A stretch of 64,000 bases of DNA from Mesorhizobium sp. AR02 (GTDB lineage Bacteria > Pseudomonadota > Alphaproteobacteria > Rhizobiales > Rhizobiaceae), in NCBI RefSeq assembly GCF_024746835.1, contig NZ_CP080530.1, forward strand, positions 248,001 to 312,000, read 5' to 3'. Both the position numbers and the translations under genes were made by a program. This document shows, piece by piece, positions 38,575 through 52,200 of this stretch. A model generated the notes under the pieces. That model was not told where the DNA came from. It saw only the letters and a list, made by a program, of their open reading frames with translations, and ran no database searches. Positions within the stretch are counted from its first letter, which is position 1. The number at the start of each line of letters is the position of its first letter.

Positions 38575-39309
38575 TCAGCTTTGAGAGCGGCTCTTGAAGC
38601 GCCAGGATTCGTTGCCAGTCTCGGCGATCTCACAGTGATGGGTGAGGCGGTCGAGCAGCGCGGTTGTCATCTTGGCGTCGCCGAAGACGCTCGGCCATTC
38701 CCCGAAGGCGAGATTGGTGGTGATGATGACGCTGGTGCGTTCGTAAAGCTTCGAGACCAGATGGAAGAGCAACTGCCCGCCGGCCTGGGCGAAGGGAAGA
38801 TAGCCGAGTTCATCGAAGACGACGAAGTCGAGCCGGGTAAGGTGATCGGCAATGCGGCCCTGCCGGCCGGCACGGGTCTCGGTCTCGAGCCTGTTGACGA
38901 GGTCGACGACGTTGAAGAAGCGCCCGCGTGCTCCGTTGCGGATGAGAGAACGGGCAATGGCGATGGCCAGATGCGACTTGCCGGTGCCTGTCCCGCCGAC
39001 CAGGACGACGTTGCGCTGATCGGCAACGAAAGCACCGCCGGCGAGATCGCGGATCAGAGGTTCGTTGACCGGCGTGCCGGCAAAATCGAAGTCCTCGATA
39101 TCCTTGGCCAGCGGAAGCTTGGCGACGGTGAGCTGGTACTTGATGGAGCGGGCCTGCTTCTCCGATATCTCGGCCTGCAACAGATCGCCGACGATCTTCG
39201 GCGGTTCGTGCTGCCGCTTAATGGCGACGCCCATGATCTCGTCATAGGCCGCGCGCATCCCGAAGAGTTTCAGCGCCCCCATCAGTTCCAGTACTTCGGT
39301 GCGTTCCAT
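38575..39309 (-). CDS. istB: IS21 helper ATPase IstB
   Basis: 244-residue DnaC/IstB-like AAA+ ATPase that directs IS21 target choice. Walker [20 protein letters not shown] and Walker [14 protein letters not shown] are intact. Start taken at [10 protein letters not shown] (ATG 39309) with GGAGGACG upstream; it overlaps the istA end by 68 bases, a typical coupled arrangement. Confidence 0.9.
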
Positions 39310-40810
39310 GGCTGTTCGTCCTCCTGAGGCTGTCATAGCGGGCGCAGTCGGCGATCGGCTCGTGAGCCAGCTTCAGCGCCTGGGGAATGGAAAGGATCGT
39401 GCCCGGCGCCGGATCGCGGCTGCGGGCCAGGATGTTGAGGATCACCGCCGCCGACGAGACGCCGTGTTCGATGGCTTCCTGGCAGGCGGCCTCGACGGCG
39501 CTCAATCCGTCGGTCAGCACGCAGGTGAGGATCGACACCATCTGCCGGTCGCCGTCATCAACCGCCTTGAGCTTGCGGCGCACCTTCTCCATTGCCGACG
39601 GCAGGACCCAGCCAAGGAACGGCGCGCCGTTGCGCAATCCGCCCGGCTTGCGGGCCAGGACCGGCACGTAGTGCCAGGGATCGTAGATGACCTCGTTGCG
39701 GCCGAAGCAGCGGGCATGCTCGCCCACGACCACGCCGTCCTGGCGGATAATGATCCGGTCGGCATAAGCATGGATCTCGACCGGCCGGCCGACGGCACTC
39801 GACAGCACCGAGTATTTGTTGTTGTCGAAGCGCACCGTGCAGGTCTTCGACACCGACGCGGGAATGCAATGGAAGCCGTCGAAGCGACCGGCATAGGGAA
39901 TGAAGCTAGCGCGCTCTTCTTCGAATACGTCCCAGACCGTGCGCTCGCCCCGTTCGGGATGCCGATGCGCCTTGGCATAGGCAACGCATTTGTCGGCCAG
40001 CCAGCCGTTGAGATCCTCCAGCGTCTTGAAGCGCAGCCTCGGTGTGAAGAAGCGCTCGCGCACCAGCCCGACCTGGTTCTCGACTTGCCCCTTCTCCCAG
40101 CCGGCCGCCGGCGTGCAGGCCTCCGGCTCGACAAGGTAATGCCCGCACATCTGCGCAAAGCGGCGGTTGTAGCGGCGATCCCTGCCGATGAAGATCGCGT
40201 CCACCGCCGTCTTCATGTTGTCGTAGATGCCGCGCGTGCAGGCGCCGCGGAAGAAGCTGAACGCCCGGTCATGGGCATCGAACACCATCTCCTGCGTTTC
40301 GCGCGGATAGGCCCGCACGAAGAACATACGGCTGTGGCAAAGCCGCATGTGCGCCACCTTCACCGTTACCGTCACGCCGTCGAGCAGAACGATCTCGTGG
40401 CTCCAGTCGAACTGGTAGGCCTCGCCCGGCGCAAAGCTCAACGGAATGTAGGCTTCGGCCGCGGCGCTGCCGCGATCTGCCTCCCAACTCTGAGCATGCC
40501 GCCACACCGAACTGTAGCTGCCGTCATAGCCGAGGCCGCGAAGCTCCTCAAAGATGCGGATCAGTGTCAGCCGCTCCCGCTGAGACTTGGCCGCATTCGC
40601 CGACAGCAGCCGATCCAACTCGTCACGCCAGGCGCCCATCCGGGGATAAGGCTGATGCTTGCGCTCGTAGCGGAACTCTGTCTCCTCGGAACGCAAAACC
40701 TTGCGCACCACCTTCCGGGAGATCTTCAGCTCCCGACAGATCGCCTTGATCGACTTTCCCTGCACCAGCGACAGCCGGCGTATCTTTGCAATCGTCTCCA
40801 CAACCAACAT
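39242..40810 (-). CDS. istA: IS21 transposase IstA
   Basis: 522-residue DDE transposase: N-terminal HTH ([20 protein letters not shown]), integrase core beginning [14 protein letters not shown] with the first Asp, [11 protein letters not shown] with the second, and [19 protein letters not shown] with the Glu. Start at ATG 40810 (GTG 40819 also possible). Appears complete. Confidence 0.9.
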
Positions 40811-40927
40811 CCAAAACACAAATGCCTCCGATCAAACCGGAGGCATCTTGATGGCCCCATCGTTAAGGGGGCCCGTTTGGACGAAAATCACCCCTCAAAC
40901 AGGGTCCTCATTCCATGAAAAATCACA

Positions 40928-41921
40928 ATCAGGCAGACGAGCGGCGTTCCGCCCTTCCGCGAACGAATATCCGGCGGTGTGATCGGCCTGGTGTTAGCAA
41001 CCGCACTCAACAAGGACTCCTTCCCCAACGTTACCAACCATGGGTGCCGCGTTTGGCACATTTTTGTGCAGGTGCGAAGAGTTAAATTCGCGATGCGCGT
41101 GGTGTTGACGGGCCACGGTCATCGTCAGAATCAATCAAATCGGTTCAAGCTGCTTCAGCAGCGCACCTGCCAACCGGCCCAAGGATCATGGCCATCAGGC
41201 AAAGCCAACCAGGAAGGCAGATCGGGAGGCAAGGCGAACGACGTCAAAGCGGTCCTGATCGCCGTCGTGGTCGCCCTGACGAATGGTGACCCAGGCATGC
41301 TTACCATCGGGCAGGCTAATGCTTCGCCATACAAGCGCGCTGGAGCCTGAGGGACTCATTGCTCAGTGCCCGATAAAGCGCTGCAGACGCAGGTTCCAGC
41401 GCGTTGGCTGCGGTCGGCAGGCAGAGGGACGACCGACGAGCGGACGTTCATCGAATGGCGAGTCATTTTGACGACGCCAAAGGCGACGATTGGCGCCCCA
41501 TCGGTTCGAACCCGTGGCAGCAGACCCGTATTCGAGACTGCCTTTTTATGCGACTATCGAAGCACCAAACATAGGACTGAAAACGTCTTTGCTCTCCGAT
41601 CCAGACGTCAGCCTCGCGCCGAGGGACGGCGATCAGAATCTCGGCGTTGAAGGTCTTGATTGGGGCCGTGTATGGACGGCTCTCTGTTAGCAAGGGTTCT
41701 ATTTGAGCGCTCTGCAGTTGCTGGTTGGTGCGGCCATGTATCCGACCTCACATCCGGCGGGATGATATCCCAACCACTGTCCCGCATTCGGGACGGGAGA
41801 GCTCCAAAGGAACGGCACCACTCTGTGAAGACGGCACTGAAGCACCACGCCGGACAACGGCGTGGTTCCCTCGGTCACCGGGCTGCTTTGCCGTCGCAGA
41901 GCTGCCCGATCTCGATAATTA
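40928..41921. other. Unassigned stretch between IS21 and IS110 elements
   Basis: About 1 kb. Open frames here (for example 40979-41350 and 41366-41650 on +) match nothing I recognise and overlap in several frames. A TGGCAC at 41055 is followed by TGTGC rather than TTGC at the right distance, so it is not a good sigma54 promoter. Confidence 0.35.
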
Positions 41922-43079
41922 TTATACGGCGGGCTTCATGGTCGCTCCCTCCGGTACGACACCATCGAAGGCAAAGCGCCACAGAGCGATCAGCAACTTG
42001 CGACCGAGGGCGACCACTATGACCTTGCGGACGCGGCGGCCAGTAGAGCCGGTGCGTTCCCGGAACCAGGCGACCTGGGCAGCACCAGGCTGGTAGCGTT
42101 GCCAGAGCCAGGCCAGCTCCACCATCACCGTTCGAAGCCGCCGGTTCCCGGCCTTTCCGATCCCTTGCTCGCGTTCCACCCCACCACTGTTGTAAGGCGT
42201 CGCAGTAAGACCTGCATAAGATCCGAGCGCTTTGGCATTAGCGAAGCGACGGACGAAGGCCTCGCGGACCAATATTGTGGCACTCTGCACCCCTATACCG
42301 CGCAGACTGCACAGCTGCTGGATCATCCGACTGGCATCATCCGAAGCGGGCACCTCCGCTACCGCATCGCGGTCGTGTTCCAGCGTGGCGATCTGATCAA
42401 GAACGAGCTCCAGCCGGCTCAGTAACCGTTCGATCTTGGCGAGGGCGTGAGGTGGCATTGGGTCACCCAGACCGGTACGAAGGTCGGCCAGACGCCGCCG
42501 GCGGTTTTTCAGGAGCGGGTTGTAATCCTCGACGCCGAGCGTCGCGAGGACAGCACCGATCCGGTTGGCAAGGCTGACACGTTCGGACACGAGCTCTGTT
42601 CGTTCGCGGACAGAGCGCCGTGCATCCTCATCGGCTTCGTCAGGGATCGGTACCATGGAGCAGACGCGCGGTTCGCCGCGAAGCCACGCCAACAGCGTAC
42701 GCAGGAGTAACTCGGCGTCGATCCCGTCCGACTTTGCGCGACGCATGCGACGATCGACGGGCACGCTGGAAGGCTGGATGACATGGACCTCCACGCCTTT
42801 GGCAATCAGCCATCTGGCAAGCCAGAACCCGGACCATCCAGCTTCGTAGGTCGCAACCACCCGATCTACCGGGTGGCCGGCAGCAGCAGCACGAGCATGA
42901 TAGCCATGGATTGCGGACTGAAGAGCAAGCTTATCTGGCTCAATGGCACGCTTCGCCTTGGTCTGCGGCAGGCCGGGCACCTGGGCGGCCAAAACCCAGT
43001 TTTTGTTGCTTAGTTCGATAGCCAGCACGAGCGTACGATCGTATTGGACAACTTCTGCGCCGTTGAATGATTGCGACAT
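41922..43079 (-). mobile_element. IS110-family transposase
   Basis: 385-residue IS110-type (DEDD) transposase from ATG 43079, which has GGAGG 7 bases upstream. The N-terminal catalytic part has LAIELSNKNW, VVATYEAGW and RRAKSDGIDAELL. The C-terminal transposase_20 part reads LCSLRGIGVQSATILVREAF with GSYAGLTATPYNSGG and the serine-containing QGIGKAGNRRLRT. It looks full length. Element boundaries were not resolved, as IS110 members often lack inverted repeats. Confidence 0.85.
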
Positions 43080-43330
43080 GATCAGGCCTCCAGAGTTTGA
43101 AATGGCGCAGTCTAATCTGCCTGCGCCGCAAATCATGGGATCTGTAGGTGCGGCGCTTCACATATGCTGCTGGCCATAATGCCATTCGCGCGGCTGAGGT
43201 CCCGATCGAAAGCTCGCACTCGAAGGTGCACGGCCCAATTGGGTTCTCCTGATCGGGCGGTATCAACCGGCTTTTTGCATTAGCTCACCCCAAGACCCGC
43301 CCACGGGTCAGCTTCCTGCGGGCGACATGG

Positions 43331-44079: not shown

Positions 44080-44445
44080 ATGAGTAATATCAATCGGAAC
44101 ATGATTGCCGTTGTGGACGATGACGAGGACGCTCGGAAGGCGCTCAACTTTCTTCTCGATGCGCTCGGGCGGTCTGCGGAAGGCTTCTCTTCAGGCGCGG
44201 ACCTCCTCAACGCTGAGCTGGAGAATTTTGACCATATTATCCTAGATCAGCATATGCCCAGGATGACCGGCTTGCAGCTAATGAGCATCCTCCGCTCGTC
44301 GCAAATCAATACTCCGGTCATGTTGATGAGCGGCAATCTGACCGACGAGGTGGTCGCGGCGGCCGAAGCCCTTGGCGCCAAAGTCACCGAGAAGCCACTG
44401 AGTCTGGAGGTCCTTGCCGCGTTCCTTGACAAGGAAGAAATGTAA
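44080..44445 (+). CDS. Single-domain response regulator (receiver only)
   Basis: 121 residues forming one CheY-like receiver domain: acidic pocket VVDDDED near residue 14, phosphoacceptor Asp in HIILDQHMPRMTGLQL near residue 54, Ser in MLMSGN and Lys in VTEKPLS. It resembles the receiver half of FixJ but has no output domain. A possible ribosome site AAAGGT precedes the ATG. It follows the FixL-like kinase fragment by 91 bases, so it has lost its partner or serves another kinase. Confidence 0.8.
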   Translation: MSNINRNMIAVVDDDEDARKALNFLLDALGRSAEGFSSGADLLNAELENFDHIILDQHMPRMTGLQLMSILRSSQINTPVMLMSGNLTDEVVAAAEALGAKVTEKPLSLEVLAAFLDKEEM

Positions 44446-44640: not shown

Positions 44641-44812
44641 GTTACCGGCTGCCTCACCAAGAATGTTACCCGCTCGCCAGACGTGTGGAATCTGAAGCGA
44701 GGTATGGCGCTGGGCCGCTGACCTTGCCGATGAGCCGCCGCACGGCTTGTTGTCGCCACGCCCTTAGTTCGGTCAGCTCGGCCTTGGAGGCATGGGCCTC
44801 AGATTCCTAACC

Positions 44813-44906
44813 TTCCCGTATTTGAAATACGCTAAAGTTAGAAATCATTGCCGTTTCAAGCCTGCCGTGTTACTTTCCCGTATGTGAGATACGCGAAAGT
44901 TAGAAA
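44813..44906 (+). promoter_or_regulatory. Tandem palindromic repeats abutting the HipA-like gene
   Basis: A ~33-base unit occurs twice, 62 bases apart. Each contains a palindrome, CGTATTTGAAATACG (44817-44831) and CGTATGTGAGATACG (44879-44893), followed by AAAGTTAGAAA. The second unit ends at the ATG (44907), leaving no room for a ribosome site, so the mRNA may be leaderless. Looks like an autoregulatory operator. Confidence 0.6.
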
Positions 44907-46748
44907 ATGCCCCTGCACCTAGTTGGAGAGAACATCGACAAAACCCGCAGCCACTACCAGGCTGAGACGGGCAAACTCGTCCAGCTGATGCGCGGCATCT
45001 ACGTCAATGCCGGGGAGGATATCGAGGCGACGGCACTCAAGCATGCCGTCCGCATCGCAAAATATCTCTACCCCAACGCCTACCTGTCAGCGGCGAGCGC
45101 TGTCCTTCTCGGGCCAACCCGCGACGGCCGCCTGTTCCTAAGCGGGCGGCGGATACAGCGCACGCCCATCCGCTTGCTCGAAATCATCCAGAACGCGGCT
45201 CCCGATCATCCATCTGTGGCCGCGGCGATTGTTGATGACGGCATGGGAGAATTCCGGATCGACGTTTCCTCAATGCGCCAACGCTTCCTCGAAGCCTTCC
45301 GTCTGCGCAGCGAGCACGCGGCATCCATCGACGAAACGATGCGCGAGACAATCGCGAACCGCCTCATCGAAGAGTACGGCAGCGCCCAGGGTGCGGCCGA
45401 TGCCATATGGTCACTTGCCCGCGAAAATAAGTGGTATCGCGAAGGTGAGCATGCCGAGCGCTTCCTGCTCCGGCGTCCCGCGCCAGCGGAAGCAGCGCGC
45501 AACGAGGCCGCACTTGATTTGATTGTCGCATGGCACGGCGCGCCCCTGGGCAACCTCACTCATGACGGTTTTGAATGGCGCTGGAATCCCGACGATCAGG
45601 ACGGCCCGCCGCTCGTTCGCCAGACCACGCCGGGTAAACTCCCGCCCTTCATTTTGTCGCTGCTGCCCGAAGGCTGGCTTGAGTCAGTCTTGAACGACCG
45701 CGACGAGCGCGCGATGCTGCGCTCGGGCAAGCGCTACATGTCGAACATCACGATCGTTGAGCGCGCGAACGATCTCGCCGCCCTGCCGCCTGACATACTG
45801 CTGACCCGGCTCAGTGGCTTCACTAAGAACTCTCTATTCACTGGCCAGTATGCCGGGCCGGGCCGCGGCGACCTGGAGCAAAGCTTCGAACGCAATCTCG
45901 CACAGATATTCGAGCGCACCGATACACCCCGCTTGTCGGGTGTCCAGATCAAAGCGCCAATGTTCCTCGATGCGGATGGCACCTTGTCGCCCAGCACCGG
46001 CAAACCCTTCACCCATATCCTCAAACCTGCTGGCACGAGCGGATTTGAGGCTCTGCCGGTTATTGAATGGCAGTCGCTCGCGTTGGGCCGCCGATCCGGT
46101 TTCACAACGGCCCCGACCGCACTCGTTCCCATGCCTGACGGGATGCCGCCCGCGCTCGTGGTTGAGCGGTTCGACATCAGGACGAGCCTTGATGACAAGC
46201 ATCTTCTTGCGCTTGAGGATTTCTGTTCCGTGCTGGGTGTGCCCACCGAAGCAAAATACGACGGCACGATGGAGCGCATCGCGCGGGCTCTGAGACCTCT
46301 ATCAACCGCCCCGGAAGAGGATGTTCTGCTTGTGCTGAAGCGATCCCTGTTCGCCTGGCTGATCGCCGATGGCGACATGCATCTTAAGAACATGGCGCTC
46401 CTCAAGATCGCAGAGCCGGGCAGCGCGCAATTCAGCTCGGTTCGCATGGCACCGCTCTACGATGCTGTCACGACCCGCGTGTTTCCACGTCTCGAAAGAG
46501 ACCGGATGGCGCTCAAACTGAACGGCAAGGACGATCGTCTGCGCCGCGCCGACTTCAAGACGTTCGCCAGCACTGCAGGCCTCAAGGCTGCCGAAGCAGA
46601 CAACGCAATTGACGATCTTGTCGCCGCTCTTTCGCACGCACTCGATCACCTAGAATTGCCATCGCCTCTATCAGACGGGTCTCAAGGCGCGAAGATGGCG
46701 GAGCAAATGCGCGCGATTGTCCGCGAACGTATCGAAGGGTTTGCGTAG
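44907..46748 (+). CDS. HipA-family kinase with AbiEi-like N-terminal extension
   Basis: 613 residues. Residues ~200-600 form a HipA-type Ser/Thr kinase: PGKLPPFILSLLPEGWLESV, ATP-binding SGVQIKAPMFL, catalytic ADGDMHLKNMALL and metal-binding MAPLYDAVTTR, all with key Lys, Asp, His, Asn and Asp present. Residues 1-190 are extra: LVQLMRGIYVNAGED and YPNAYLSAASAVLLGP resemble the AbiEi-type antitoxin/transcriptional regulator fold. No separate hipB lies upstream, so the N-terminal part may act as built-in regulator. A TAG just upstream fixes 44907 as the first possible start. The next gene begins directly after the stop. AbiEi assignment is by eye and moderate. Confidence 0.75.
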   Translation: MPLHLVGENIDKTRSHYQAETGKLVQLMRGIYVNAGEDIEATALKHAVRIAKYLYPNAYLSAASAVLLGPTRDGRLFLSGRRIQRTPIRLLEIIQNAAPDHPSVAAAIVDDGMGEFRIDVSSMRQRFLEAFRLRSEHAASIDETMRETIANRLIEEYGSAQGAADAIWSLARENKWYREGEHAERFLLRRPAPAEAARNEAALDLIVAWHGAPLGNLTHDGFEWRWNPDDQDGPPLVRQTTPGKLPPFILSLLPEGWLESVLNDRDERAMLRSGKRYMSNITIVERANDLAALPPDILLTRLSGFTKNSLFTGQYAGPGRGDLEQSFERNLAQIFERTDTPRLSGVQIKAPMFLDADGTLSPSTGKPFTHILKPAGTSGFEALPVIEWQSLALGRRSGFTTAPTALVPMPDGMPPALVVERFDIRTSLDDKHLLALEDFCSVLGVPTEAKYDGTMERIARALRPLSTAPEEDVLLVLKRSLFAWLIADGDMHLKNMALLKIAEPGSAQFSSVRMAPLYDAVTTRVFPRLERDRMALKLNGKDDRLRRADFKTFASTAGLKAAEADNAIDDLVAALSHALDHLELPSPLSDGSQGAKMAEQMRAIVRERIEGFA

Positions 46749-47234
46749 ATGATCGATCTCACCGACGCGCCGGTCTCTGCCCTCCTTGAACTGCACGGCG
46801 ATTTGTTGGCAGAGCTGCGGCGTCGTAAGATCGTGCGCAGTGCCAACAATCCAACCGGCGACTACGGAGAGCTCCTATTCTCCAGAGCCTTCGGGTGGAC
46901 CCTCAACAGCAATTCTTCCGCCGATGCTGACGCCATCGATACCGAGGGGGTGCGCTATCAGATAAAGTGCCGCAAGCTTGAAACACTGGGCGGTTCCCGT
47001 CAGCTCGGATTTATCCGCCGACTCCCCGACAGACCTTTTGACCGGCTCGCGGCTGTCCTGCTCGATGGCAAGTTCCGTGTCACCAGGGCAGCCATCATTC
47101 CGTACGAAGTCGTCGAACCGCGACGTACGTCGATAGCGTCAAAGGCTGGAGGTTCATGCTGCGCGACTGTCTGTGACATACCCGGCGTCATGGATGTTAC
47201 GCCCGAATTGCGAGCGGCGGAGCAGGCGATCTGA
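46749..47234 (+). CDS. DUF6998-like protein paired with the HipA-like kinase
   Basis: 161 residues starting immediately after the HipA stop. It resembles DUF6998 proteins: LLELHGDLLAELRRRKIVRS, NNPTGDYGELLFSRAFGW, DAIDTEGVRYQIKCRKLE, then FDRLAAVLLDGKFRVTRAAI. The GDYGE and D-x(n)-QIKCR elements look like a PD-(D/E)XK nuclease-type core, but activity is unproven. Near 47123-47178 the expected YVDSVKGWRFMLRDCL is found only in another frame, flanked by compensating indels; the normal frame resumes at DIPGVMDVTPELRAA. The product is full length but scrambled there. Confidence 0.65.
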   Translation: MIDLTDAPVSALLELHGDLLAELRRRKIVRSANNPTGDYGELLFSRAFGWTLNSNSSADADAIDTEGVRYQIKCRKLETLGGSRQLGFIRRLPDRPFDRLAAVLLDGKFRVTRAAIIPYEVVEPRRTSIASKAGGSCCATVCDIPGVMDVTPELRAAEQAI

Positions 47235-47659: not shown

Positions 47660-49201
47660 TCATGCAGCGGCGGTTTTGGCGAAGTTGAAGGGCAGCAGGT
47701 CGGTGATGTCGGCGTCTGTGGCGCGCTGCGGCAATTCGCTGAGGACGTAGCGCAAGTAGGCCAAGGGCTCGACGCCACAGGCGCGGCAGGTCAGCATCAG
47801 GCTGTATATGACGGCGCTGGCCCTGGCTCCATCCACGGTATCGCTGAACAGCCAGGATTTTCTGCCGGTGGCAAAGATTCTGATATCGCGTTCGAGGAGG
47901 TTGTTGTCGATCGGCATCCTGCCGTCTTCTGTGTATCGCGTCAGGTACTCCCACTGGTTCAGAGTGTAGGACACGGCGTCGCCGATCTTGCTATCGGGCA
48001 AGACCTTCGGCGCGATGTCGTCGAGCCATGCCTTGAGAGCATTGAGGATGGGAACGCTGTGTTGCTGGCGAAAGCGGCGAATGCAATCGGCTTGTGTTTC
48101 GCCCTTGTCCGGCTTTTCGTTCCGAACTTGGCCTTCAACCCGGTAGAGCTGCTCGAAGAACTTGAGCGCCTGCTCCGGCGGACCGCCCCCCTTCTTTCTT
48201 GCCTTGAGGGCATCGACGAAGCGACGTCTGGAATGGGCCATGCATCCCACATGGGTGGCCCCTGCCAGCGTGCGCCATGCGGTATAGCCATCGCTCATCA
48301 GTATGCCGCGGTAATCGCCGAGGAAGGCCTGCGGATAAATCTGGCCGCGACCCGGTTGATAATCGAGCAGCACGATCGGCTCGTTACTCTCTTCGCCGCT
48401 CCGGTATGCCCACATAAATGATGTGCTGGTGGCCTCCCTGTCCTTTTCCTTCAGGACCTGGACGGTGGTCTCGTCGCCATGGATGAGTGCTTGAGACCTG
48501 AGCCGCAGCTTCAGTGCGTCATAGATGCGGGAGAGATGCTTCTCGCTCGATCCGATCACCCAATGCCCCAGAGCGCCGCGGCTGACGGGCACGCCGGCTC
48601 GCTCGAATGCCTGGCTCAAGCGGTAGAGCGGCGTGCCGTCGACGTACTTGTGAACAAGAGCAAATGCCAGTGTCGAGGCCGTGGCGATGCTGCCCGGCAA
48701 GGGCTGCGCGGGCATCGGCGCGATCACGACCGGCGTATTGATGCCGGTACGGTCGCAATGGCGGCAGGCATACTTGAAGCGCACATTCTGCAGGACCTTC
48801 GCCTTCACCTCGATATGAAGCTGCTCGGTAATGGCCTCGCCCATGTGGTGCATCCGGTGACGACAGCAAGGACAGGCCTTCTGATCTTCGGGAAGGTCAT
48901 ACTCGACGCGCTCGCGCGGCAGGTGTTCCGGCAGGGCCTTGCGGCCACGCTTCTTTCCCTCCGGCTTTTTTTCGGTGGACGGAAAGCCGGTGTCCGGCAG
49001 GTCGACCACATTGCCATCTTCGCTGCCGGCGTCGTCTTCATCGGCAACCTGTTCGGCTTCATTGAAAAGGCGATCAACGTGCTTTTCGCTCTTGGGCGCA
49101 AAACGATGTGAGCGCGCCAGCGCCAACTCTTCCTCGAGCTTAACCACGCGTTCTGCGAGCTGACGGTTCTCCGCCTGCAGCACAGCAATGCGCGCCATCA
49201 A
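47660..49201 (-). CDS. tnpC: IS66 transposase TnpC, 5' end displaced by IS91
   Basis: 513 residues visible: coiled-coil leader (MARIAVLQAENRQLAERVVK), zinc-binding region CPCCRHRMHHMG and CRHCDRTG, DDE core with LIHGDETTVQV, LMSDGYTAW and late LLERDIRIFATGRKSWLFS. The frame stays open upstream to the IS91 junction at about 49228, and continues in register beyond IS91 to an ATG at 51777 (MNLEGSVWSRARLGGH). So the original protein was longer by about 35 residues and IS91 split it near its N-terminus. Confidence 0.85.
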   Translation of the reverse strand: MMARIAVLQAENRQLAERVVKLEEELALARSHRFAPKSEKHVDRLFNEAEQVADEDDAGSEDGNVVDLPDTGFPSTEKKPEGKKRGRKALPEHLPRERVEYDLPEDQKACPCCRHRMHHMGEAITEQLHIEVKAKVLQNVRFKYACRHCDRTGINTPVVIAPMPAQPLPGSIATASTLAFALVHKYVDGTPLYRLSQAFERAGVPVSRGALGHWVIGSSEKHLSRIYDALKLRLRSQALIHGDETTVQVLKEKDREATSTSFMWAYRSGEESNEPIVLLDYQPGRGQIYPQAFLGDYRGILMSDGYTAWRTLAGATHVGCMAHSRRRFVDALKARKKGGGPPEQALKFFEQLYRVEGQVRNEKPDKGETQADCIRRFRQQHSVPILNALKAWLDDIAPKVLPDSKIGDAVSYTLNQWEYLTRYTEDGRMPIDNNLLERDIRIFATGRKSWLFSDTVDGARASAVIYSLMLTCRACGVEPLAYLRYVLSELPQRATDADITDLLPFNFAKTAAA

Positions 49202-49336
49202 CTCCTCAACAGTCGGTTCGCCAGGTCGATTGAACTAAACCGCTGCCGCGGTAGCTGACGCGCGGGTCTGGCCTGAGGAGGCCCCTGTCTGAGAAGATTT
49301 GGTGTCGAGCCAACCTTCCAGACAGGAGAACCCCAG

Positions 49337-50197
49337 ATGGCCCAGATAAGCCCTCTGCGTCAGCGGATGATTGAAGATCTGACGATCCGCAATTTGTCAC
49401 CGGAGACCCAGCGATCCTACGTGCATCACGTGGCGAAGTTCAGTCGATTTTTTGGACGATCACCCGATCAATTGGGATACGAAGAGGTGCGCGCCTATCA
49501 GGCCCACTTGGTGGGCCGAAGGGTCTCGTGGGGCGCGTTGAACCAGACCGTTTGCGCCTTGCGTTTCTTCTACGGCGTGACGCTGGGTCGATCTGATCTG
49601 CCTGAGCGGATCGCTTACGCCCGGACGCCGCGCAAGTTGCCGGTCGTGCTGAGCGCCGATGAGGTGGTCGGCTTTCTGCAGGCCGTGAAGGGGACGAGGA
49701 ACCGGGTCGCTCTGATGACCACCTATGCGGCGGGCTTACGCGCCGCGGAGGCGGCGTGTCTGCGGGTGAGCGACATCGATAGCAGCCGGATGGTCATTCG
49801 CATCGAGCAGGGCAAGGGCGGCAAGGACCGCTATGTGATGCTGTCGCCGCAGCTGCTGGAGATTTTGCGCGTCTATTGGCGGTTGACCAAGCCGGGGCGA
49901 TGGCTGTTTCCCCGGCGCGATGGCCGCGGCCCGATCCACCCGCAGACCTTGGGGATCGCCTGTCGAGCAGCCTGCGAGTTCCTGGGCGTTGAGAAGCGGG
50001 TGACGGTGCACACCCTTCGTCACAGCTTCGCCACCCACCTTTTGGAAGCCGGCACGGACATAAGGATCATTCAGGTGCTGCTGGGCCATCGCAGCCTGGC
50101 GACGACGACACTGTACGCCCAGGTCTCAACGGCAGTGATCGGCCGGACCGCCAGTCCTTTTGACCAACTCCACATGGAGATCACGCCGCCCGGCTGA
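49337..50197 (+). CDS. Tyrosine recombinase/integrase of the IS91-type element
   Basis: 286-residue XerC/D-like recombinase: N-terminal SAM-like core-binding domain, then catalytic Arg in TTYAAGLRAAEAACLRVSDI, Lys in GKGGKDRYVML, HTLRHSFATHLLEAG with His-x-x-Arg, and a late GHRSLATTTLYAQVS with the tyrosine. All catalytic residues are present. It ends 10 bases before the transposase start; such paired integrases are common in IS91-like elements. Confidence 0.85.
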   Translation: MAQISPLRQRMIEDLTIRNLSPETQRSYVHHVAKFSRFFGRSPDQLGYEEVRAYQAHLVGRRVSWGALNQTVCALRFFYGVTLGRSDLPERIAYARTPRKLPVVLSADEVVGFLQAVKGTRNRVALMTTYAAGLRAAEAACLRVSDIDSSRMVIRIEQGKGGKDRYVMLSPQLLEILRVYWRLTKPGRWLFPRRDGRGPIHPQTLGIACRAACEFLGVEKRVTVHTLRHSFATHLLEAGTDIRIIQVLLGHRSLATTTLYAQVSTAVIGRTASPFDQLHMEITPPG

Positions 50198-50207
50198 GCC
50201 GCGCGCC

Positions 50208-51416
50208 ATGCGCCCGGATCTGGAAGTGGCGGATGTATTCCACCGTCACGGGGATGATTATCGCCGCGACCATGCCGGCCATCTCGGGCGTGTCGAGCGC
50301 CGGGTCATGGCCGCGGTGGAGGCGTGCCGGACCGCGGCCCTGGGTGGTCACGCCGAACACTGCACCGACTGCGGCCTCGTGCGGCAAGCCTATAACTCCT
50401 GCCGCAACCGCCACTGCCCTAAGTGCCAGGGCCTAGCCCGCGCCCAGTGGCTGGCCGAGCGGCAGGCTGAGCTGCTGCCGGTCCCATACTTCCACGTGGT
50501 CTTCACCGTCCCGGCCCAGATCGCTGAGATCGCCTTCCAGAACAAGGCGGCGGTCTATGCGATCCTGTTCAAGGCCGCATCCGAAGCCTTGAGGGCGGCG
50601 GCGGCCGATCCCAGGCATCTGGGCGCCGAGATCGGCGTGGTCGCCGTGCTTCATACTTGGGGTCAAAATCTCCACCATCATCCGCATGTCCACTGCGTCG
50701 TGCCGGGCGGCGGCCTGTCGCTCGAGCCTGCCCCGGCGACGGCCGGGGACCGGCGATGGATCGCCTGCCGGCCGGGATTTTTCCTGCCCGTGCGGGTTCT
50801 GTCGCGCCTGTTCAGGCGGCTATTCCTGGAGCACCTGCAGGACGCCTTCGACGCCGGCCAGCTTCGCTTCTTCAGCGATCTCGCCAGCCTGGCCGACCCT
50901 GCCACTTTCTGCGCCCAACTGGCTGGACTGAAGCGGATCGAATGGGTCGTCTACGCCAAGCCCCCGTTCGGCGGTCCCGAACAGGTCCTCGCCTATCTGG
51001 GCCGCTACACCCATCGCGTCGCCATCGCCAACAGCCGCCTCGTGAGCCTGGACCAGGGAAAGGTCAGCTTCCGCTGGAAGGACTATCGCCACCACGACAA
51101 GTCCAAGCACAAGCTCATGACCTTAAGCGCCGACGAGTTCATCCGGCGCTTCCTGCTGCACGCTCTTCCAGACGGATTCCATCGCATCCGCCACTACGGC
51201 CTCTTCGCCAACGGCCACCGCGTCGCCAAGCTCGCCCAGTGCCGTCTTCTTCTGGCGGCGCCCACGCCGCCGACGCCGGACCCGACCGCCGACTATCGCC
51301 AGCGTTACCGCTGTCTCACAGGGCGCTCCCTGGACATCTGTCCGGGCTGCGGCGGCGCCATGGCCTCGCTCGGCCCGATCCCGCGCAAGGCCCAGACCTG
51401 GCCAGACACCTCATGA
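50208..51416 (+). CDS. IS91-family HUH transposase
   Basis: 402 residues from ATG 50208 (the frame upstream to 50160 only overlaps the integrase). A zinc-ribbon region CTDCGLVRQAYNSCRNRHCP with CPKC follows; the HUH motif reads HHHPHVHCVVPGGGLS. The second half has YLGRYTHRVAIANSRLVS, with its catalytic tyrosines, and a final CPGC zinc motif. The element moves by rolling-circle replication. The reading frame is complete. Confidence 0.85.
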   Translation: MRPDLEVADVFHRHGDDYRRDHAGHLGRVERRVMAAVEACRTAALGGHAEHCTDCGLVRQAYNSCRNRHCPKCQGLARAQWLAERQAELLPVPYFHVVFTVPAQIAEIAFQNKAAVYAILFKAASEALRAAAADPRHLGAEIGVVAVLHTWGQNLHHHPHVHCVVPGGGLSLEPAPATAGDRRWIACRPGFFLPVRVLSRLFRRLFLEHLQDAFDAGQLRFFSDLASLADPATFCAQLAGLKRIEWVVYAKPPFGGPEQVLAYLGRYTHRVAIANSRLVSLDQGKVSFRWKDYRHHDKSKHKLMTLSADEFIRRFLLHALPDGFHRIRHYGLFANGHRVAKLAQCRLLLAAPTPPTPDPTADYRQRYRCLTGRSLDICPGCGGAMASLGPIPRKAQTWPDTS

Positions 51417-51831
51417 CACGCCGCGCACCGACACGCTCGCACCGTCCATCCCGGCGTCTGCTACAGTCGCCGCCGGGCCTTTGCGCGCCGCTAGTCAAAG
51501 TCGCAGCCTGGCTATCGCCAGCAACGCTGCACCTCAGCGTCAACGACCCAATGGCGCCGTCTCTCGCGTCGCAGATGGTCCTGCATCGCGACGACGGGCG
51601 ACTGCCCCAGAGCGATCGGCGAGCCCGCTCCGGCGCCTCGGACACACTGTCGACCCCTAAATCCCCATAGCCCCGCCCGCCATCCCGCGGTTCAGTTCAA
51701 TCAGGCTTCAATGTAGTCGCGACCCATGCGTGCCCGCCCAATCGCGCCCGCGACCACACAGAACCCTCCAGATTCATCGTAGTTTTGAATCTGAACCGCA
51801 CCGACGCGTCAACCGCACAATTCGGGAGCCG

Positions 51832-52200
51832 TCAGCCCGCAACCTGATATTGCCGCACCGGATGGCGCACCATTGCATCGATGTCGATGCCGTCGAGAAT
51901 CCAATGGAGCTGCTCGGTCGTCAGCGTAACCACCGCCGTCTCCCGGCGTGGCCATCGGAACCTGTCTTCGGTCAGCCGCTTCAGAACCAGCACGAAGCCG
52001 GACCGGTCGAAGAACAAGAGTTTCATCCGGTCGCGGCGGCGATTGCAAAATGCAAAGACCGCAGGCGCAAATGGGTCAAGCTCCATCACCTCCTGAACCA
52101 GGACCGCAAGGCTGTTGATGCCGGCCCTAAAATCGATCGGCTCGCGGTGCAGGTAGACGTTGAGATCAGCGCCCAGTCTGAACATGGCCCAGAGCTCCAA
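51832..52200 (-). CDS. tnpB: IS66 accessory protein TnpB
   Basis: 122 residues with the IS66 Orf2 signature: YLHREPIDFRAGINSLAVLV, DPFAPAVFAFCNRRRDRMKL and LLFFDRSGFVLVLKRL. It overlaps the tnpA end. Needed for IS66 transposition although its function is not known. Confidence 0.9.
   Translation of the reverse strand: MELWAMFRLGADLNVYLHREPIDFRAGINSLAVLVQEVMELDPFAPAVFAFCNRRRDRMKLLFFDRSGFVLVLKRLTEDRFRWPRRETAVVTLTTEQLHWILDGIDIDAMVRHPVRQYQVAG

Follow-up and report, generated by a model that had tools for sequence, protein, structure and literature searches.

HipA kinases are model persistence toxins that are usually under the control of a separate antitoxin. The DNA analyzed here, positions 248,001 to 312,000 of contig NZ_CP080530.1 from Mesorhizobium sp. 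AR02 (64,000 nucleotides (nt), called the window, with positions counted from its first letter), encodes a 613-residue HipA-type kinase in the open reading frame (ORF) 44907–46748 on the forward strand, which ends in TAG. An adjacent hipB-like gene was not found in the window, in agreement with an earlier, sequence-only reading. We consider it likely that 44810–46748 is a single-gene, self-repressing AbiEi-HipA-type kinase unit. The assignment builds on the domain make-up of the protein, an AbiEi-like predicted fold, paired palindromes that occur family-wide and are unique to the locus in its genome, covariation of these palindromes with a predicted recognition helix, and a neighborhood in which no constant partner was found.

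Domain Architecture of the Kinase

The C-terminal part of the protein is a HipA_C Ser/Thr kinase domain (residues 343–577; 45933–46637, forward strand), which is recognized by its Pfam profile with an E value of 4e-39 (134.9 bits against a cut-off of 30.5) and by the conserved motifs LSGVQIK (the loop), K373, DGDMHLKN, and D519. When the protein is aligned with 58 relatives that are 61–77% identical to it, Q347, K349, K373, E387, D488, D490, N495, and D519 are unchanged in all 59 members, which bears out the earlier statement that all visible kinase residues are kept. The Gly-rich loop, the ATP lysine, the catalytic D...N, and the Mg-binding D of HipA-type kinases are all present, the roles of these residues being presumed, in part via alignment to HipT. 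The nearest solved relatives by sequence are Legionella HipT (E 7e-16) and E. coli HipA (3e-8); both are also matched by Foldseek, with E values from 6e-15, when the query is the AlphaFold2 model of the full-length protein (predicted local distance difference test score 85.7, predicted template modeling score 0.76). The same genome holds a second HipA-like kinase, at G000:C1:622795-623379, which matches the window kinase with E 8e-8.

The first ~190 residues (residues 1–190; 44907–45476, forward strand) had been read as an AbiEi-type module, and this is supported by the predicted fold, a weak profile match, and comparison of hidden Markov models (HMMs). The predicted structure contains the two domains of the AbiEi fold, a short winged helix-turn-helix (HTH) part followed by a nucleotidyltransferase-like C-terminal domain. 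In the model, the winged part consists only of a strand at residues 3–6, a helix at 12–20, which is the predicted recognition helix, and strands at 24–34, which form the wing; residue 1 pairs with AbiEi residue 14, and the modeled winged helix is shorter at its start. The set used for comparison in hhalign consisted of 8, then 12 of the 25 ORFs with AbiEi_4 hits, chosen by eye as plausibly AbiEi-type. A profile search of the PDB with the N-terminus returned no AbiEi, the top match being MutL with E 0.5. Likewise, no free AbiEi protein was found by label among 120 of the 512 matches to the N-terminal alignment, in a search with a length filter in which all matches are below 340 residues; these 120 are close family, 62–90% identical. 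An HTH of the HipH type at the N-terminus was rejected on a BLASTP comparison with HipH, in which the one significant piece covers kinase residues.

Between the N-terminal module and the kinase, residues ~203–285 (45513–45761, forward strand) give weak matches to Couple_hipA, seen in 27 of the 59 members at E ≤0.1 with a best value of 0.005, and this stretch matches HI_0666 with E 0.05. A HipS-like segment, corresponding to the N-subdomain-1 of HipA, is weakly supported at this place.

At E ≤0.001, residues 1–195 have matches in 2,025 protein clusters, and among the best 120 of these, most are ~612 residues long and carry HipA_C. By record title, the kinase loci include alpha-, beta-, and gammaproteobacteria and metagenome-assembled genomes labeled Bryobacterales, Solibacter, Polyangiaceae, and Fibrobacteres. 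In 71 plasmid records, at least 80% of the kinase protein is found in one place; the 40 of these that were listed are mostly from one marine species. On plasmid 1 of Nitrobacter hamburgensis (L084), an annotated cas9 lies ~2.3 kb downstream of a 92%-identical kinase, and an IMG/VR contig (L124) places a kinase relative with paired palindromes in a viral collection.

Paired Palindromes at the Predicted Kinase Promoter

Two palindromic repeats of 35 nt each precede the kinase gene, a distal one at 44810–44844 and a proximal one at 44872–44906, both of them putative operators to which no strand is assigned. They are 89% identical to each other at a spacing of 62, and the proximal repeat abuts the kinase start codon, its last base being position −1. 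The coordinates and shuffles bear out the earlier description of two ~33-base palindromes, 62 apart, that run up to the start codon; the remark that no ribosome site is left also holds, as no clear Shine-Dalgarno sequence was seen by eye before the kinase start. The family consensus of the palindrome is about TAACTTTCsCGTAT-nTGAn-ATACGsGAAAGTTA. With up to 3 mismatches allowed, a 26-nt palindrome pattern has no match in 100 shuffled windows, and a 32-nt pattern is confined to the kinase locus in the 8.9-Mb genome (control 0). A predicted −35 box, TTGCCG (44848–44853, forward strand), lies between the palindromes and is separated in the window locus by a spacer of 16 from the predicted −10 box, TTACTT (44870–44875, forward strand), which is the outer arm of the proximal palindrome.

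The arrangement recurs among relatives. We compared 91 upstream regions, in which the own locus and near-identical pairs are counted; L018 (N runs), L028 (short upstream sequence), L044 (partial), and L085 (a second copy of the own locus) were left out. The centers of the two palindromes are 61–68 bp apart in 79 regions, 52–55 bp in 5, and at other distances in 7, the two spacing classes differing by about one helical turn. The center of the proximal palindrome lies 17.5–22.5 bp ahead of the aligned start in 86 of the 91, distances that are approximate in those loci that lack a start codon at aligned position 1. In 71% of the 91 regions, both palindromes form at least 11 of 15 pairs, as against 0.2% of 910 mononucleotide shuffles. 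In the 58 non-redundant loci, the consensus of the proximal palindrome is tcTAACTTTCcCGTATcTGAAATACGcGAAAGTTAgA. A −35-like box with up to 2 mismatches occurs between the palindromes in 36 of these 58, compared with 18.8% in shuffles, and is followed by a 17-bp spacer in 28 of the 36; the −10 box TAACTT, again part of the proximal palindrome as its outer arm, is exact in 41 of the 58, a count made without a shuffle control. The palindromes look like a dedicated operator of the kinase gene, and protein bound there would block the promoter.

The variable positions of the operator covary most with residues 10–21, the predicted recognition helix, in a set of 57 of the 58 non-redundant loci (L108, without a palindrome pair, was dropped). 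The median best z is 6.4 for the 11 helix columns, against 3.2 for 107 other N-terminal columns and 2.9 for 265 columns after residue 195, and a rank test of helix 10–21 gives p 1.6e-4 for best z and p 0.0013 for mean z. An outer base G goes with R17 (6/8 vs 0/49), and a change of the outer T to C goes with D, S, or N at residue 13 (5/7 vs 2/50). These observations suggest that the encoded protein probably reads the palindromes. In the three most distant loci (L112, L113, and L114; 61–64% identity), the operators have GCAT for GTAT and a 55-bp spacing, and the recognition helix is altered together with the operator.

One could suppose that an unrelated regulator binds at the palindromes or that they serve as an RNA structure, as a hairpin could form from the proximal palindrome within what is presumed to be a short leader. 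However, conservation extends to both palindromes, the one ahead of the promoter as well as the proximal one; the pattern occurs in the genome only at the kinase locus; and it covaries more with helix 10–21 than with the rest of the encoded protein. We find this explanation hardly probable at all.

Several points weaken the case for an AbiEi-type module that reads its own operator. For most of the N-terminal module, the fit to nucleotidyltransferase folds is almost as good as that to AbiEi, and our confidence in the AbiEi-HipA assignment is slightly lower because of this. The four Fisher tables on residue-base pairs (p 8e-7, 1e-4, 0.03, and 0.08) were chosen after the pattern had been seen, and the last two, from further pairs, are weak. 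High covariation scores are also found outside the helix, for example at residues 247, 477, and 140, and the statistics ignore kinship among the loci.

The Downstream Gene and Its Neighborhood

The gene behind the kinase, which had been proposed as the second member of one unit, is an ORF of 161 residues (46749–47234, forward strand) whose ATG follows the TAG of the kinase ORF with zero gap. Its product matches PADLOC mREase_II (E 2.8e-39), Eco15I (8q5m, E 1.4e-26), and NhoI (8q5n, E 3.8e-16), and on this sequence similarity it is a homologue of the BisI family of 5-methylcytosine-dependent PD-(D/E)XK endonucleases. In the alignment, E41, D61, and Q71-I-K73 match the BisI active-site motif, E ... 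(x)D ... QxK (PMC11347163). The likeness to DUF6998 noted earlier stands insofar as some relatives carry that label nonetheless, but DUF6998 itself reaches E 3e-4 and 21.1 bits against a cut-off of 27 and was rejected as the best name, the BisI/Eco15I/NhoI family matching better.

The nuclease gene appears to be damaged. Residues ~125–142 are judged to be out of frame relative to the BisI family because the family peptide sits in another frame of the same DNA. The position of the C-terminal (H/R)(V/I/T/M) methyl-binding motif falls inside this stretch and is not confidently alignable; at this place, an Eco15I-like protein has N-A-H-I, and five close relatives that were aligned have K/N-A-W-(K/R), that is, W-K or W-R. 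On a plasmid of Mesorhizobium AR10, the copy with 97% DNA identity is broken in a different way, and that of Aminobacter (L005) is shortened and scrambled. In 8 of 14 close loci tested, all 8 from Mesorhizobium, the first 37 nt of the nuclease alone are kept behind the kinase, and L003 has, by eye, a similar stub. To judge from these remnants, the BisI-family gene is probably a decaying former neighbor that lies outside the regulatory unit.

Would the two genes nonetheless act jointly as a defense unit, for example with the kinase gating a modification-dependent restriction enzyme? The abutting start codon, the same gene order on the AR10 plasmid and, degraded, in Aminobacter, and the 37-nt stubs are in keeping with such a unit, as is a second neighborhood in genome G261, where a different, ordinary HipA of 410 residues (L087:1498-3230; Couple_hipA and HipA_C) stops 8 nt short of a BisI homologue that appears to be intact. 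This neighborhood is independent of the window locus and is a lead, not a pattern. Against a joint system stands the result that, among the best 80 of 212 kinase loci in public genomes (4 of them with <500 nt of downstream sequence), tblastn places a BisI homologue beside the kinase only in Aminobacter L005 and in none of the other 79. The reverse test is similar: among 33 other BisI-type loci, with flanks of 1.5–3 kb as a rule, L087 is the only one with a HipA-type kinase in its flank, and none of the five BisI loci added by additional samples has a HipA. The copies in the window, AR10, and Aminobacter are all damaged, each differently, while the kinase is intact. A survey of 397 genomes of the order says little, with 18 holding a nuclease homologue, 10 the kinase, and only the own genome both; as ~0.5 joint genomes are expected by chance, this sample speaks neither for nor against a link. 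On the basis of the 1/80 co-location, the stubs, the 1/33 reverse test, and the damaged copies, we rejected nuclease and kinase as one system and regard it as very improbable. The nuclease neighbor can thus suggest a defense unit that comparison does not bear out. Further family samples gave no new BisI locus, and no BisI homologues were found in the viral contigs. In three genomes (L089, L090, and L092), a protein of ~310 residues with an Mrr_cat restriction domain precedes the BisI homologue.

The kinase in the window has a response regulator gene upstream and the BisI homologue downstream, and no AbiEii nucleotidyltransferase gene or HTH_3-type hipB is among its neighbors. We examined 131 larger neighboring ORFs of relatives (110–700 residues, from 35 loci with long flanks) and 126 small ones (40–130 residues, from 57 of the 59 loci and mostly surely not genes). 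The most that any Pfam family reaches is 3 of the larger ORFs and 1 of the small ones, and HTH_3 is matched by a single small ORF with E 0.0099, in line with the lack of a hipB. On these counts, the kinase appears to stand alone. A PADLOC scan of the 131 larger ORFs matched 29 families at E ≤1e-8, mostly by single matches among the 25 listed; as the scan had no control set, we make no claim of a defense island. Genes for the RF3 release factor account for 3 of the 131, perhaps marking a preferred insertion place, and HipA_C occurs in another 3, perhaps as tandem kinases. The single-domain response regulator gene of the window lies at 44080–44445, upstream of the palindromes, and the AR10 plasmid likewise has an annotated response regulator ahead of its kinase. 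Flanking ORFs at 39242–43136 and 47660–52200 resemble IS21-, IS110-, and IS66-type transposases.

A single gene with no antitoxin gene and no constant neighbor found could also encode a self-regulated signaling kinase rather than a toxin, in which the AbiEi part would sense and the kinase would modify a specific regulator without growth arrest; HipH (YjjJ), the nearest known analogue, is likewise monocistronic with an N-terminal HTH (PMC8262856). Overproduced HipH is toxic, however (PMC9948734), and the patchy spread of the window kinase (10/397 genomes of the order) and its presence on plasmids are at least equally compatible with an accessory toxin-antitoxin-like unit. We consider a signaling role unlikely.

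Proposed Mechanism

In the self-repressing kinase unit that we favor, the N-terminal AbiEi module would bind the two ~33-bp palindromes, which flank the −35 box and overlie the −10 box and the leader, and would silence the promoter of the kinase gene. That the two sites keep almost the same helical phasing points to cooperative binding on a single face of the DNA. The AbiEi C-terminal domain, the HipS-like segment, or both may restrain the kinase half in cis. Once released or titrated, the kinase would act on a cellular target by phosphorylation, plausibly in translation like HipA and HipT, and growth would stall.

More tentatively, the family may represent an undescribed and widespread class in which toxin and antitoxin form one polypeptide, a possibility to which we give rather less than even weight. 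In this class, a type IV AbiEi antitoxin/repressor would be welded to a type II HipA toxin and served by phased paired palindromes, with the kinase and operator-binding states coupled in one molecule. If this is true, autophosphorylation or target binding, for example, could release the DNA, and gene dosage, plasmid loss, or phage takeover would trigger growth arrest. An AbiEi repressor and a HipA in one chain would join two toxin-antitoxin types that are usually treated apart, and an operator that covaries with the recognition helix makes possible a direct test of whether one molecule serves as toxin, antitoxin, and repressor.

Comparison with Known Systems

No account of an AbiEi-HipA fusion was found in the literature searched, which left most subscription papers and all preprints outside, nor was one of HipA together with modification-dependent restriction. 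A 2021 survey of Hip kinases, which describes HipH/YjjJ and HipL in monocistronic operons, kept kinases with an adjacent antitoxin gene, and AbiEi is absent from its text (PMC8262856); AbiEi-HipA kinases may be unlisted there because an adjacent antitoxin gene was required.

The downstream gene shares the active-site residues E, AD, and QIK with the BisI family (Eco15I, NhoI) and differs from an Eco15I-like protein, whose C-terminal N-A-H-I corresponds to an out-of-frame stretch of the window copy. With HipBA and HipBST, the window unit shares the kinase domain and possibly a HipS-like subdomain; unlike them, it has no HipB or HipS gene, and the putative repressor is in the same chain and of another fold.

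With AbiEi antitoxins, the window protein has in common the predicted fold and inverted-repeat sites over the promoter, and both the AbiEi of S. agalactiae and Rv2827c are autorepressors that act through inverted repeats (PMC7319586, PMC3985639). It differs in being fused to a HipA kinase, in having no AbiEii nucleotidyltransferase partner, and in its modeled winged helix, which is shorter at the start; its operator consists of two full palindromes ~63 bp apart, whereas the 23-bp repeats of AbiEi are 3 or 13 bp apart.

HipH (YjjJ) shares with the window kinase the organization as one gene, the HipA-type kinase, an N-terminal extension of a DNA-binding type, and the lack of an adjacent antitoxin gene (PMC8262856). 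The extension is ~190 residues with an AbiEi-like predicted fold in the window kinase and ~100 residues with an HTH in HipH. The two proteins give a single significant BLASTP piece, 25% identity over 104 kinase residues, and the window kinase scores 15.8 bits with the NCBIfam HipH model, below the cut-off of 401. The conserved paired palindromic operator, finally, is a feature of the window kinase family that sets it against HipH. As far as its sequence tells, the window kinase appears to work like HipH, with an extension of another fold.
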